This document shows positions 4,212 to 46,902 of a DNA stretch of 64,000 nt, piece after piece. How positions within the stretch are numbered: the first letter of the stretch is position 1; every line of letters starts with the position of its first letter. Position numbers and translations under genes: made by a program. The stretch lies in the NCBI RefSeq assembly GCF_000378605.1, contig NZ_KB905156.1, forward strand, positions 1 through 64,000. The letters run 5' to 3'. The notes beneath the pieces were generated by a model. That model saw only the letters and a program-made list of their open reading frames with translations. It had not been told where the DNA came from and searched no databases. Origin of the DNA: Thioalkalivibrio sp. ALJ21 (GTDB taxonomy: Bacteria > Pseudomonadota > Gammaproteobacteria > Ectothiorhodospirales > Ectothiorhodospiraceae).

Positions 4212-5549
4212 ATGTCCCTGGCCTTTGGTGCCCTCCTCCCCTGGCTCTCCGGCCCACGCGAATATGCCGCGCTGCGCCGGGCGGAGCGGCTGCCCCTGCC
4301 CGCCCTGCAGCGCCTGCAGGCCGAGCGGCTCGCGCGCCTACTGGTACAGGCACGCGACGACGTGCCGTACTACCGGGAAATCCTGCCAGATGCGGACACC
4401 ATCGCCGCCGATCCGCTGGCCACCCTGCTGTCGCTGCCCATCCTCGACAAGGACACCATCCGTCGCGAGGGCGAGCGCCTGTGCGCACAGCGGCCCCGAC
4501 CCGGGCTGCGGCGCAACACCTCGGGGGGATCCACCGGCGAGCCGGCCACGTTCTACCAGGACACCGCCTATCGCCGCTGGGGCCGCGCCACCAAGGCCCT
4601 GTTCGACGGCTGGACCGGCTACCGCCCGGGGCAGCCCAAGGCCGTGCTGTGGGCGGCTTCACGCGACCTGACGGCACCCCGGGGCACCCGCCGCCTCGCC
4701 GAACGCCTGAAGAATCGCACCCTGCTGAACGCCTACCGCATGGACCCGGAGACGATGGATGCGCACCTCGAGCAGTTGCGCGCCGCGCCGCCCAGCCAGT
4801 TGCAGATCTACGCGGAGAGTGGCCACGAACTCGCCCGGCATGCCCTGCGCCGGGGAGTCCGTGTGCCGGGTATCGGCAGTGTGCTGAGTTCGGCCGGCAC
4901 CCTCTTTCCCGACATGCGCGAGACCATCGAGAAGGCCTTCGATGCCCCCGTGTTCAACCGCTACGGCTCGCGCGAGGTGGGTGACATCGCCTGCGAATGC
5001 GAGCGCCACCGCGGGCTGCACGTCAACCCGCTGACCCAGTACCTGGAGATCCTCGACGACGACGGCCGTCCGACGCCACCCGGCATCCCCGGACGGGTCG
5101 TGGTCACCTCGCTGACGAACTACAGCATGCCCCTGCTGCGCTATGCGATCGGCGACCTGGCCAGCTGGTCCGGCGAGGCCTGCGACTGCGGGCGGGAATG
5201 GCCGCTGCTGGAGGGGGTATGGGGACGCGTGACCGACCATATCCGCGGCACCAGCGGTGCCGTGGTATTCGGCGGGTGGCTGCGCCAGTTGCTGTACCCG
5301 GAAGACTGGATCGGACAGTACCAGTGGGTCCAGCACGCGGAAGATCATATCCGCCTGCGCCTGATCCCCATCGATCGTGCCCCGCAGGGCGAGCGAGAAC
5401 AGCGTCTGCAGGCGCGCCTGGAGCCCGAGATCCGCGAACAACTCGGCGCGGGCACACGCCTGGATATCGATCGCGTGGACGCGATCCCGCCGTCGCCCAG
5501 CGGCAAGCACCTGCATGTGATCAGCGAGTTGCAGGAGAACCGACGGTGA
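4212..5549 (+). CDS. CapK / phenylacetate-CoA ligase-like adenylate-forming protein
   Basis: 445 residues. The AMP-binding P-loop NTSGGSTGEPATFY lies near residue 102, and a second core motif NRYGSREVGDIACECE near residue 248, followed by a Cys-rich turn (CDCGREW). These fit the PaaK/CapK branch of the ANL superfamily. Members activate a carboxylic acid as acyl-AMP and pass it to a thiol or amine; in capsule clusters they are thought to attach acyl or amino-acid groups. It follows the ATP-grasp and QueC-like genes closely, and its TGA overlaps the GTG start of the next glycosyltransferase. No carrier protein gene is visible nearby. The acid activated is unknown. Confidence 0.8.
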   Translation: MSLAFGALLPWLSGPREYAALRRAERLPLPALQRLQAERLARLLVQARDDVPYYREILPDADTIAADPLATLLSLPILDKDTIRREGERLCAQRPRPGLRRNTSGGSTGEPATFYQDTAYRRWGRATKALFDGWTGYRPGQPKAVLWAASRDLTAPRGTRRLAERLKNRTLLNAYRMDPETMDAHLEQLRAAPPSQLQIYAESGHELARHALRRGVRVPGIGSVLSSAGTLFPDMRETIEKAFDAPVFNRYGSREVGDIACECERHRGLHVNPLTQYLEILDDDGRPTPPGIPGRVVVTSLTNYSMPLLRYAIGDLASWSGEACDCGREWPLLEGVWGRVTDHIRGTSGAVVFGGWLRQLLYPEDWIGQYQWVQHAEDHIRLRLIPIDRAPQGEREQRLQARLEPEIREQLGAGTRLDIDRVDAIPPSPSGKHLHVISELQENRR

Positions 5550-43335: not shown

Positions 43336-44721
43336 TCACGCCGGCATGTGCGCACTCAGCAGCCAGGCGGCCATGCCGAAGTACACGGCCAGACCGGTGA
43401 AGTCCTTGATGGTGGTGATGAACGGATCCGCGCCTGGCGCATGGTCCACACCGATTTTCAGCAGTACCCACGGCAGCAGGAAGCCCAGGATCGACGCGGT
43501 AAACACCGAGACAAACAGCGCCACGCCAACCACGATGCCCAGCTCCGGAATGCCGTTCGGCGCACCCTGCCAGAAGTGTGCGATGGTACCGGCGATGACG
43601 GCCATCACAACCCCCATGGCCAGGCCTACGCCCCCCTCGCGGACCAGGTGCGCGCGGAAGAATCGGCCCAGGTTGATATGCCCCAGGGCAAGCCCGCGGG
43701 CGAAGATCGTGGTCGACTGCGTGCCAACGTTGCCGCCCATGTCCATCACCAGCGGGATGAAGATGGCCAGCGCAACCACCGCCGCCAGGGTGTCCTCGAA
43801 GAAGTCGATCACCCCGCCTACGGCCAGACCACCGGCCAGCGTCACCATCAGGAAGGCCATGCGCACCTTGACCGCATAGCCGATCCCGCCGGAGGTCAGC
43901 TTCTCCGAGCGCACGACATCCTTCTGGTGCAGCAGGTCGCCGATCCCGGCCTTCTTGTAGAAGTCCTCCGAGGTGTCTTCCTCGAGCACGTCCATCGCGT
44001 CGTCGATGCGCAGCACCCCCACCAGCACGCCATCGGCATCCACCACCGGCAGATACGGCAGATCCGTGCGCTGCAGCAGGCGGGCGGCCTCGACCTTGTC
44101 ACCGTCGGGCGTGGTGTAGAAGTCCTCCAGTTCGATCAGATCCCCAACCGTCTGGCCGGACTCCGCGCGGAACATCCGGCCCAGGCGCACCAGCCCCTTG
44201 TAGTGGTGGTCGCGATCCGTGATCAGCAGTGCGGCCCCGATATCGTCCGGCATATTGCGATCGTCGCGCAGGCGGGAGGTGACCTCGCTGACGGTCTCTT
44301 CCGGAGTCACCCAGAACACCGGGCGACGCATCACACGAGCCACGGTGTCCTCGTCCTGACGCCACAGGGCGCGTACCTTGTCGCGCTTGGCCCCGGGGAG
44401 GGCATCCAGCAGGTCATCCGCCAGGGACTTGCCCACCAGCGCCAGAGACCGCGCCAGGGTGTAGGCCGGCAGGGCCTGCACCAGCTCGCGGGCCTCCGGC
44501 TCGGGCATATGCTCGAACAGGATCGCCTGTTCTTCGTCGTCCATTGCCAGGAAGATGGCGCGACGCTCATTGGTGTCCACACCCGCGAGGATTACCAAGC
44601 GGGAACGCGGGTCCAGTTCCGACAGGCGGTTGGCGGTGATGGCCGGGACCGGATGGATCACCTCGTCGCGGGCAGCACCCACGTCACCGGCATGAATCAT
44701 TTCCAGAATCTTGTCGTTCAT
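43336..44721 (-). CDS. mgtE: Magnesium transporter MgtE
   Basis: 461 residues with the full layout: an N-terminal helical MgtE_N domain (to about 130), two CBS domains (about 135-255), a connecting helix and five membrane helices (about 285-455). AIFIPLVMDMGGNVGTQS and the final SILGFLLPWVLLKIGVDHAP are pore motifs. MgtE is a Mg2+-gated Mg2+ channel of the inner membrane. AAGGAG lies before the ATG. The gene has an unusually long leader to 45278 with a peptide ORF and structured segments, described separately. Confidence 0.95.
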   Translation of the reverse strand: MNDKILEMIHAGDVGAARDEVIHPVPAITANRLSELDPRSRLVILAGVDTNERRAIFLAMDDEEQAILFEHMPEPEARELVQALPAYTLARSLALVGKSLADDLLDALPGAKRDKVRALWRQDEDTVARVMRRPVFWVTPEETVSEVTSRLRDDRNMPDDIGAALLITDRDHHYKGLVRLGRMFRAESGQTVGDLIELEDFYTTPDGDKVEAARLLQRTDLPYLPVVDADGVLVGVLRIDDAMDVLEEDTSEDFYKKAGIGDLLHQKDVVRSEKLTSGGIGYAVKVRMAFLMVTLAGGLAVGGVIDFFEDTLAAVVALAIFIPLVMDMGGNVGTQSTTIFARGLALGHINLGRFFRAHLVREGGVGLAMGVVMAVIAGTIAHFWQGAPNGIPELGIVVGVALFVSVFTASILGFLLPWVLLKIGVDHAPGADPFITTIKDFTGLAVYFGMAAWLLSAHMPA

Positions 44722-44740
44722 TGCAATGCTCCTTGTGCTT

Positions 44741-44808
44741 AAAAAAATAAAAAACGCACACGGGGCATTACAAAAGACAAAAGAATCCCGTGACCGCTGG
44801 TGGCGGTC
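44741..44808 (-). terminator. Possible attenuator in the mgtE leader
   Basis: On the minus strand, a hairpin GACCGC-CACCA-GCGGTC (44792-44808) directly follows the leader-peptide stop. It is followed by a second pairing, CACGGG with CCCGTG (44787-44792 and 44759-44764), then a T6-A-T7 tract at 44741-44754, just before the mgtE ribosome site. The stems are short, so conditional rather than strong termination is suggested. Confidence 0.45.
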
Positions 44809-44810
44809 TT

Positions 44811-44915
44811 TTACAAAACCCCCATCAGCGAGACGAACACCTTTTTCCTTTGCTCACTGCCCCGCAGTGATATTCCGGATCTAGACCCGGGGTCGTCGTT
44901 TTCAGGCGCTGGCAT
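44811..44915 (-). CDS. Leader peptide upstream of mgtE (34 codons)
   Basis: A short frame of 34 residues starts at ATG 44915 with a perfect AGGAGG (44921-44926) five bases before it and ends at TAA 44811. It begins Met-Pro-Ala-Pro-Glu-Asn-Asp-Asp-Pro, an acidic and proline-rich N-terminus, and ends with a basic stretch (EQRKKVFVSLMGVL). It lies inside the mgtE transcript leader. Peptides such as MgtL (MEPDPTPLP at its start) use this type of N-terminus to destabilise ribosomes at low magnesium. A similar role here is inference. An upstream in-frame ATG at 44939 is possible but has no ribosome site. Confidence 0.6.
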   Translation of the reverse strand: MPAPENDDPGSRSGISLRGSEQRKKVFVSLMGVL

Positions 44916-44941
44916 GGCGACCTCCTGCTGGTTGTTCATAG

Positions 44942-45284
44942 GTACAGTCCACTCCGCTGCGCGCACAGCAACGCACGCACCGGCCCGGAATCCGAGCAGA
45001 GGCGGAATATCATCGAATGGCATGGGGCAGCGCGCCACGCGCAAGGGCGGGCGCAGAACGGGCTTGGGGGCTGGAGAAACGCCCGCGAGGGACGCTAGGG
45101 GGAAGGCGTTCTGTCACCCCCCCGGAGTCACGCATATCGCTGACACCGGAGGGCACCACCGTTCTACCGGGTGGCGGGACCCCGCTGGCAACGATATGCA
45201 CGCTCGTACCGGCCACCGGCCCGACGCTCATGCATCCATCGACAACAGTCCATTGACAGACCTCTGCTACTCAAGATGGGCGCG
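44942..45284 (-). promoter_or_regulatory. Structured 5' leader segment of mgtE
   Basis: This is a non-coding part of the mgtE leader. An 11-pair stem joins 45132-45142 and 45189-45199 (GCATATCG-type arms) and encloses GCGGGGTCCCGC and a CCACC/GGTGG hairpin, giving a multi-branch domain. Downstream, 45107-45113 can pair with 45054-45060 (CAGAACG/CGTTCTG), or 45105-45110 with 45078-45083 (AACGCC/GGCGTT); the two pairings exclude each other. No known riboswitch signature was recognised, including the M-box. Confidence 0.5.
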
Positions 45285-45313
45285 ATTGTAGTGACGACCA
45301 TTCACTTTCGCAA
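45285..45313 (-). promoter_or_regulatory. Sigma-70-type promoter for the mgtE leader
   Basis: On the minus strand, TTGCGA (45308-45313) and TACAAT (45285-45290) are separated by 17 bases. Transcription would begin near 45278, giving a leader of about 555 bases before mgtE. Confidence 0.65.
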
Positions 45314-45330
45314 CCCCGTAAATAAAATCT

Positions 45331-46902
45331 CTACACGGACTTTTGTTCAAAACGCTGGATCAGCGCCTTGAGTTCGGCGGCCTCGGCCAGCATGCGCGCG
45401 CTGGCATCGCGTGCATGCACCGAGACCGAACCGGTTTCGCTGGCGACATCACGAATGGAGGTCACGTTGCGGTTGATCTCCTCGGAGACCGCGCTTTGTT
45501 CCTCGACCGCCGTGGCGATCTGGGTGTTCATCTCGGTGATCTGGGCGACGGCCTCGCGGATCGTGGTCAGCGAGTCGCCCGCCGCCTGGGCCTTTTCCAC
45601 CCCGTCGGCCGCCTGCTCCTGACTGGCGCGCATCGCAGACATCGCCTCGCGCGCACCGTTTTGCAGGGTCTCGATCATGTTGCGGATGGTCACCGTGGAC
45701 TCGTCAGTACGCTGCGACAGCGAGCGCACCTCGTCGGCCACCACCGCAAAGCCGCGCCCGTGCTCGCCCGCACGCGCGGCCTCGATCGCGGCGTTCAGCG
45801 CCAGCAGGTTGGTCTGTTCGGCAATCTCGCGGATCACACCCAGGATCTTGTCGATCTCCTCGGTGCTCGCCTCCAGCTTGCCCAGCTTCTCCGCGGTGGA
45901 TTCCACCTCGGCTGCCATACGATTGATCACGGCAACCGTGTCGTTCACGACCTCCTGCCCGGCCCCGGTCTCCTTCTCGGCGTGGTTCGCGGCCTCGGCC
46001 GCGCGCGCGGAATTGCCGGCCATCTCCTGGATGGTCGAGCTCATCTCGTTCATCGCGGTGGCAACCTGGTCGATCTCGTTCTGCTGGCGCTCCACCCCCG
46101 AGGCCGTCTGATCGACGCTGCTGGCCATCGCCTGGGCATCCCCGGCCACGGCATCGGCCTTGTCCTCGATGCGGCCCAGCACCGTGCGCAGCTTCGCCTC
46201 GTTGAAGTGCTGGATCAGCTCCAGCGACGCGCTGTCGTCGCGACGCCCGGTATAGATCGCCTCCATCACGGGGTTGTCGAACTGCTCGCGGGCGCGGTTA
46301 ACGGCCTGCCGGATACCCGTGGTCAACGCCAGCGACACCCCGCCACCGGCGACGAAGATCAACGCCAGCAGGCCGGCCAGGGCCAGCGGCGAAGGCGCCA
46401 GAAAGACGGCGGCCAGCGCCAGCAGGAAGCCCGCGAGCCAGGTTCCCGCAAGACGCCAGATGAGGCTGTGATACCAGCGCCGCGCAAAGCTCCGGCCCCG
46501 GTTGAGCGCGGCATAGACCTGCTCCGCGCGAGCAACATGCTCGCGCTCCGGGATGGCCCGCACCGACTCGTAACCGGTCTTGCGGCCGTGCTCGTAGGCG
46601 GGCGTTACAAAGGCATCCACCCAGTAGTGGTCACCGTTCTTGCGCCGGTTCTTGACGATGCCCATCCACGGGTGATCCGCCTTCAGGGTCTCCCACATGT
46701 TCGCGTAGGCGGCCTCCGGCATGTCCGGGTGGCGCACGATGTTGTGGGCCGATCCTTCCAGCTCCTCGCAGTCGAAACCGCTGACCGTAACGAAGTCGTC
46801 ATTGGCGTAACGGATGCGGCCCTTCTCGTCGGTGGCCGAGATCAGGTCTCCGTGGGCCTCCAGGGAATACTCGGCCTGAGTAACGGGAAGGTTCTTGCGC
46901 AT
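45331..46902 (-). CDS. PAS-domain methyl-accepting chemotaxis protein, Aer-like
   Basis: 523 residues. A PAS domain (about 10-110, with [21 protein letters not shown] and [17 protein letters not shown]) precedes two close membrane helices (about 150-195). The cytoplasmic signalling hairpin has the invariant tip [20 protein letters not shown]. The layout is that of Aer-type redox or aerotaxis receptors, in which PAS binds FAD. HAMP is not obvious. ATG 46902 is used. It lies beside an HDOD gene and motAB, so the region serves motility. Confidence 0.9.

Follow-up and report, generated by a model that had tools for sequence, protein, structure and literature searches.

In the soda-lake bacterium Thioalkalivibrio sp. 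ALJ21 the Mg2+ transporter gene mgtE lies behind a conserved leader in which a short upstream open reading frame with an acidic and proline-rich start (uORF2) precedes a hairpin that hides the mgtE ribosome site. The leader appears to be composite. The best-supported explanation for it, with about an even chance of being correct, is that it senses Mg2+ through ribosome drop-off, as the leader peptides MgtL and MgtQ do. SD-led acidic uORFs of this kind are found before mgtE genes of the same subfamily more often than in control sequences, and two alternative pairings of the RNA before mgtE are possible in all nine orthologs. The window (the whole stretch that was analysed, positions 1 to 64,000 of contig NZ_KB905156.1) carries mgtE and its leader on the minus strand (Table 1).

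Table 1. Features of mgtE and its leader in the 64,000-nt window
Feature	Positions	Strand	Description	Basis
Promoter	45285..45313	-	sigma-70-like, TTGCGA (45313-45308), 17 nt, TACAAT (45290-45285)	consensus scan
5′ element	45106..45286	-	helices A, P2 and C and competing helix B; one strong copy per genome	
uORF1	45164..45253	-	MDCCRWMHERRAGGRYERAYRCQRGPATR; 29 codons; GAGGT 6 nt 5′ of ATG; inside the 5′ element	
Helix A	45177..45251	-	25 pairs and an inner 4-pair hairpin	ends computed from alignment columns
Helix B	45132..45199	-	11 pairs, 45199-45189 with 45142-45132	
Helix C	45117..45153	-	CCCUCCGGUGUCA / UGACUCCGGGGGG; 12 pairs	
C-rich, G-poor stretch	44979..45131	-	C 40-50%, G 23-29%	78-nt windows
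uORF2	44811..44915	-	MPAPENDDPGSRSGISLRGSEQRKKVFVSLMGVL; 34 codons; SD AGGAGG at 44926-44921	
Segment X	44858..44866	-	UGCGGGGCA; in uORF2, about codons 17-20; can pair with strand 3	
uORF2-end hairpin	44792..44830	-	end of uORF2 with post-stop sequence, CGCUGAUGG / CCACCAGCG	folding
SD-hiding hairpin	44721..44773	-	strand 3 (44773-44756) with strand 4 (44738-44721)	folding, ortholog pairing
mgtE	43336..44721	-	461 aa; MgtE_N, CBS and MgtE domains	

All seven named relatives with 83-97% identity to the MgtE of the window come from Thioalkalivibrio. The promoter proposed in the initial annotation is borne out, as it is the sole sigma-70-like site on the minus strand of positions 44600-45420 in a consensus scan and its -10 box reads TACAAT in seven of nine orthologs and TAAACT or TAAAAT in the remaining two. 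The leader of about 555 nt that would start there, also foreseen in that annotation, folds more stably than any of 100 dinucleotide shuffles (z -3.3). It is a real and conserved leader, since its 5′ element occurs before mgtE in nine of 30 Thioalkalivibrio genomes, in one strong copy each. Between this element and uORF2 lies a C-rich, G-poor stretch for which a rut/Rho role may be suggested purely by analogy with mgtA and corA.

The 34-codon frame with its AGGAGG is present as the initial annotation had it. The start of the peptide, with its Pro, Asp and Glu residues, is kept in the nine orthologs and outside the clade; the remainder is frameshifted in two of the nine. The start reads MPAPENDDPGS in the window, MPAPEDDDPGS in genomes G020, G041, G022, G042 and G024, MPAPDDDDPGS in G004, MPAPVDDDPGS in G003 and MPQDDDDPGS in G012; residue 6 is N in the window and D in the other 34-codon orthologs. 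A 1-base deletion in G022 (locus L035) and G003 (L036) leaves the acidic start in place and alters the peptide after residue 11, giving frames of 29 codons with the new stop at most 15 nt from the old one. Outside the clade the start takes the form MPDDPEPE in E. magna and E. shaposhnikovii, from a TTG located 8 nt after AGGAGG, MPDEPEPE, also from TTG, in Halorhodospira abdelmalekii, MPDDPGPE in T. sulfidiphilus strain ALJ17 and G011, and MPDDPGPA in T. denitrificans. Of the 13 named loci that match best (L061-L073), 12, all except L071, have a uORF beginning MP..DDP or MPDEP, and so do G000, G041 and G011; where its distance is listed, it lies 145-201 nt before the chosen mgtE start. The uORF2-type start is kept in L008, L068-L070, L072 and L073, loci in which the model of the 5′ element gives no credible match (best match at E 1.8 or weaker, or none). 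With its short ORF, strong SD, position upstream of a Mg2+ transporter gene and conserved early acidic and proline residues, uORF2 has the traits of IRD leader peptides of the MgtL/MgtQ type.

A stand-alone small MgtE_N-domain protein is encoded directly before uORF2 and mgtE in L069 (1359-1751) and L008 (801-1232), and a similar frame is seen in L070. The domain match has E 3.7e-07 in L069 and 24.0 bits in L008, just under the cut-off of 25.9. In L069 and L008 uORF2 thus lies between two genes, as mgtQ does.

The coding signal of uORF2 is weak within the genus. The silent-change test, which cannot separate coding from blockwise conservation, finds no excess in four Thioalkalivibrio pairs (p 0.67-0.92) and gives p 0.026 and 0.021 in two pairs with G012. 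For six uORF2 pairs outside the clade, pairwise codon tests give p 0.003-0.20. Among the six core codons in six non-clade sequences, five of six third positions vary, versus one of 12 other positions (Fisher p 0.004), a comparison that is biased because the codons were picked for their conserved peptide. The weak signal in the genus and the dominance of the SD hairpin in the computed folds of six of nine orthologs would suit a conserved RNA with a constitutive hairpin and no Mg2+ response, in which uORF2 is idle and is kept by the overlapping structure. Such an idle frame is very improbable, given that in the six non-clade sequences the start of the peptide is preserved and the changes fall mostly on third positions, and that SD-led acidic uORFs are enriched over generic mgtE loci.

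This enrichment was counted with a rule fixed after inspection of subfamily and generic loci: a frame of 8-60 codons at most 600 nt upstream, with an SD of at least 5 bases and with residues 2-8 that include two or more D/E but neither K nor R. By this rule SD-led acidic uORFs occur in 15 of 68 non-redundant subfamily loci, compared with one on the antisense strand and a mean of 1.87 (maximum 7) in 60 shuffles. The 68 loci are the 76 usable ones of 80 (four have no start or lack 400 nt upstream) minus eight near-duplicates. Generic mgtE loci of the same class, at about 30% identity and with the seven same-genus paralogs L194-L200 excluded, yield one in 53 (antisense 2, shuffle mean 1.47). The notion that all mgtE genes are alike in this respect was rejected, as SD-led acidic uORFs are no more frequent in the generic loci than expected by chance. 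Discrimination depends on the strong SD, because a looser rule without a strong SD also finds an ORF with two early D/E in 22 of 60 generic mgtE and same-genus paralog loci. Eight of the 15 positive loci come from the Ectothiorhodospiraceae group. The remaining seven are L071, L083, the Chloroflexi-like L102-L104 and the cyanobacterial L133 and L136, and chance may account for some of them. The rule misses L078, which has an early R, as well as a second type of uORF starting M[ED]DPSSR, which has no strong SD. In the leaders of the Chloroflexi-like loci L102, L103, L104 and L114 the uORFs are rich in serine and acidic residues (MEDVSSPSS..., MEETSGHSS..., MNTDSMDTDS... and MDAESSSPSS...), and DASSPSALTGRR is common to the leaders of L102 and L103.

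The MgtL-like control put forward in the initial annotation gains support in one part, as acidic starts recur beyond shuffles, antisense strands and generic loci and persist without the 5′ element; its terminator part is not supported. A stem followed by T6-A-T7 had been read as an attenuator. The T run (44754-44741) lies in the loop of the hairpin that hides the mgtE SD and is broken up in three of nine orthologs, and a consensus scan of 44600-45420 detects no terminator-like site on the minus strand, so that the run was rejected as a terminator or attenuator tail. The 3′ arm of the hairpin, strand 4, comprises the mgtE SD and start region, with AAGGAG at 44734-44729. In nine orthologs 97.8% of its cells are paired, with zero double changes. 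Segment X can pair with strand 3 instead: 81 of 81 cells are paired, with one double change from G-C to A-U in G042 and G024 that is probably a single event.

Both pairings are thus possible in the nine orthologs, and the computed energies favour the OFF state in six of them. When the RNA ends before strand 4 and carries no ribosome, the computed probability of X pairing with strand 3 is at least 0.96 in nine of nine; the loss of this pairing from the same RNA under a mid-ORF mask is true by construction. In the whole RNA from uORF2 to mgtE the SD hairpin wins in six of nine, among them the window, whichever of the modelled positions the ribosome occupied. The X pairing wins in three of nine, where a ribosome in the middle of uORF2 flips the balance and one at the stop codon does so only partly or not at all. 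Since the SD hairpin wins the whole RNA in six of nine, the X pairing would need to take effect while the RNA is being transcribed in most strains, that of the window among them. The computation of SD access with ribosome masking gave no clear switch. For the hairpin at the end of uORF2, an alternative GACCGC/GCGGUC pairing has a probability of 0.00.

Under ribosome drop-off, translation of mgtE would be repressed by its ribosome site being hidden in the hairpin of strands 3 and 4. At high Mg2+ ribosomes would traverse uORF2 and cover segment X, so that strand 3 remains available to sequester the mgtE ribosome site (OFF). At low Mg2+ they would drop off at the acidic and proline-rich start (MPxPEDDDP, codons 2-9) before reaching X, which could then pair with strand 3 during RNA synthesis and leave the mgtE ribosome site open (ON). 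The 5′ element and uORF1 would constitute a second, upstream switch with exclusive helices (A and C, or B), perhaps acting via Rho on the C-rich stretch that follows the element.

Helices A, P2 and C of the 5′ element were predicted by RNAalifold. Over nine sequences 97.7% of their cells are paired and seven pairs show double changes, which none of 500 shuffles matches; all seven rest on G012, the most diverged sequence, and one also on G024. Helix A has about 97% of cells paired and three pairs with a double change, all in G012, and helix C has 100% of cells paired and two such pairs, in G012 and, for one pair, in G024. The stem that the initial annotation placed at 45132-45199 as enclosing a multi-branch fold does exist, as helix B, with 99 of 99 cells paired in nine orthologs, ten invariant pairs and zero double changes. 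It competes with helices A and C, with which it shares bases, so that the folds are exclusive. As helix B always pairs but hardly varies, it is possible, not proven.

Matches to the 5′ element at E 1.1e-20 or better, one strong match each, were obtained by BLAST in the nine genomes, and in the remaining 21 Thioalkalivibrio genomes the matches were at E 0.013 or weaker. A covariance model finds the element in eight clade sources among 40 searched, at E 7.6e-41 or better; run with stricter filters against 143 class genomes, it found its own genome alone.

An RNA of this description has been published. The mgtE motif, SRC-65-1 (Narunsky et al. 2024, NAR, PMC11109978), has 32 representatives, from Thioalkalivibrio only, and is described as a strong riboswitch candidate with SD and AUG at the base of P4. 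The leader in the window belongs to the same genus, lies directly upstream of mgtE, is similarly narrow in distribution and places the SD and AUG of mgtE at the foot of a large, imperfect stem. That the two are the same RNA is inferred from the agreement in genus, gene and anatomy. The window leader differs from the published description in carrying two frames and in that the start of one peptide can be traced to orthologs without the 5′ element; the paragraph on the mgtE motif does not mention any, although uORFs form one of the classes in the paper. According to the published proposal, the 5′ element, the mgtE-proximal fold or both would bind Mg2+ or a different ligand as an aptamer and thereby expose or mask the SD, with the uORFs incidental or merely coupling translation. 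The double changes beyond all shuffles, the two exclusive folds and the M-boxes found before six relatives of this mgtE are in keeping with an aptamer. We nevertheless consider it unlikely, because the double changes all trace to G012 and the 5′ element does not extend beyond the clade in the sequences searched, whereas orthologs lacking the element retain the acidic start and comparable starts are found in other phyla. In addition, an Rfam scan of 44500-45500 returns zero known RNA families at the gathering score and no riboswitch at E up to 10, the only matches being microRNA families far below their cut-offs, and the M-box covariance model (RF00380) has no match in the leader.

A second frame, uORF1, beyond the one named in the initial annotation, lies within the 5′ element. 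Against G012, 11 of its 25 codons are the same, two differ silently and 12 change the amino acid. With 12 changing and two silent codons, RNA constraint explains the pattern in the clade as well as coding does, and it is uncertain whether uORF1 is coding in the clade of the window. Its start holds one acidic residue. By eye it is perhaps akin to the starts MDSSCCR (E. shaposhnikovii, L073) and MDSDSSCCR (a gammaproteobacterial MAG, L071) found before mgtE, and perhaps, by a looser resemblance, to the 26-residue M[ED]DPSSR peptides. The latter are encoded 316-527 nt before the matched mgtE start in L074, L076, L077, L088, L091, L113 and L129, and in L074, L088 and L091 (Ectothiorhodospiraceae MAGs, Alkalilimnicola) they stand in place of a uORF2-type start. 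Pairwise codon tests for twelve uORF1-type pairs give p 0.003-1.0. The M[ED]D...SSR start is rare: its DNA pattern is found in none of 369 class genomes, in three of the seven genomes behind the named loci and in three of 121 genomes of the family of G399. In all seven loci the AGTAGTCGA stretch of this uORF is identical, although the codons preceding it differ in their third positions; this suggests a constraint on the RNA or on codon speed.

Two uORFs in one leader raise the prospect of tandem control, in which the upstream element and uORF1 would set transcription through Rho and uORF2 would set mgtE translation, with the tandem attenuators of Salmonella mgtCBR as a model (PMC3641672). The exclusive helices that overlap uORF1, the C-rich stretch downstream and the M[ED]DPSSR uORFs of seven loci would accord with such a division. 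It is quite unlikely, given the excess of amino-acid-changing codons in uORF1, its single early acidic residue and a kinship with the M[ED]DPSSR peptides that was judged by eye.

A link to Mg2+ comes from relatives of the transporter. Scanning 60 of the 80 subfamily loci with Rfam identifies an M-box in six (L078, L083, L110, L115, L116 and L137), so that relatives of this transporter carry Mg2+ riboswitches, which fits Mg2+ control of this subfamily. In L078, a MAG named Nitriliruptoraceae, the M-box (1372-1559) is followed by an acidic-start uORF near 1711 with a GTG start; in L083, a MAG named Ilumatobacter, the M-box (1546-1726) is followed by one near 1836. L071, the gammaproteobacterial MAG, has a match to the Mn2+ (yybP-ykoY) riboswitch 3′ of mgtE (4585-4753; 63.0 bits, cut-off 45).

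The closest precedent for the leader and its putative mechanism is mgtQ before Salmonella mgtB (PMC8092293). It too is a short ORF led by AGGAGG with early acidic codons, and a stem 3:4 that hides the ribosome site alternates with an opening stem 2:3. It differs in that mgtQ has eight codons and lies between two operon genes, whereas uORF2 has 34 codons in a promoter-led leader and precedes a transporter of another family. The mgtL-mgtA (PMC11282234) and corL-corA (PMC11552253) leaders likewise combine a short leader ORF, two exclusive RNA states and a Mg2+ transporter downstream. Ribosomes drop off on EPDP in MgtL, whose start is acidic and proline-containing as in uORF2 (PMC11282234). The mgtL and corL leaders act via Rho-dependent termination, whereas the last step in the mgtE leader looks translational. 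In the pe20 operon of M. tuberculosis (PMC12810186) a Mg2+-linked leader similarly has a conserved uORF and a translational platform. The pe20 leader contains an M-box and that of the window none, although both features, M-box and acidic-start uORF, occur together in L078 and L083.

The initial annotation knew of no such arrangement described for mgtE. That view is only partly upheld: the RNA had already been published as a riboswitch candidate (PMC11109978), and no acidic leader for mgtE was found in the literature searched, which was covered mostly by title and the beginning of the abstract, with subscription papers outside its scope. The RNA itself is therefore not new, and its rereading in terms of a peptide and the spread of such peptides over a subfamily appear to be. 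Tentatively, and with some doubt, acidic and proline-rich leader peptides may be viewed as a Mg2+ sensor that is widespread, has arisen repeatedly in one MgtE subfamily and replaces or joins the M-box, with the Thioalkalivibrio candidate as its RNA arm, not an aptamer, serving two tandem uORFs.

An orphan riboswitch candidate thereby gains a testable rereading in which sensing falls to the ribosome as it makes a short acidic peptide, and for that reason a ligand may never be found. If the rereading is true, Mg2+ sensing by ribosome drop-off, as for mgtA, mgtB and possibly enterobacterial corA, would extend to the MgtE family and reach the Ectothiorhodospiraceae, perhaps also the Chloroflexi and others. 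It could then explain how members of the subfamily without an M-box sense Mg2+.
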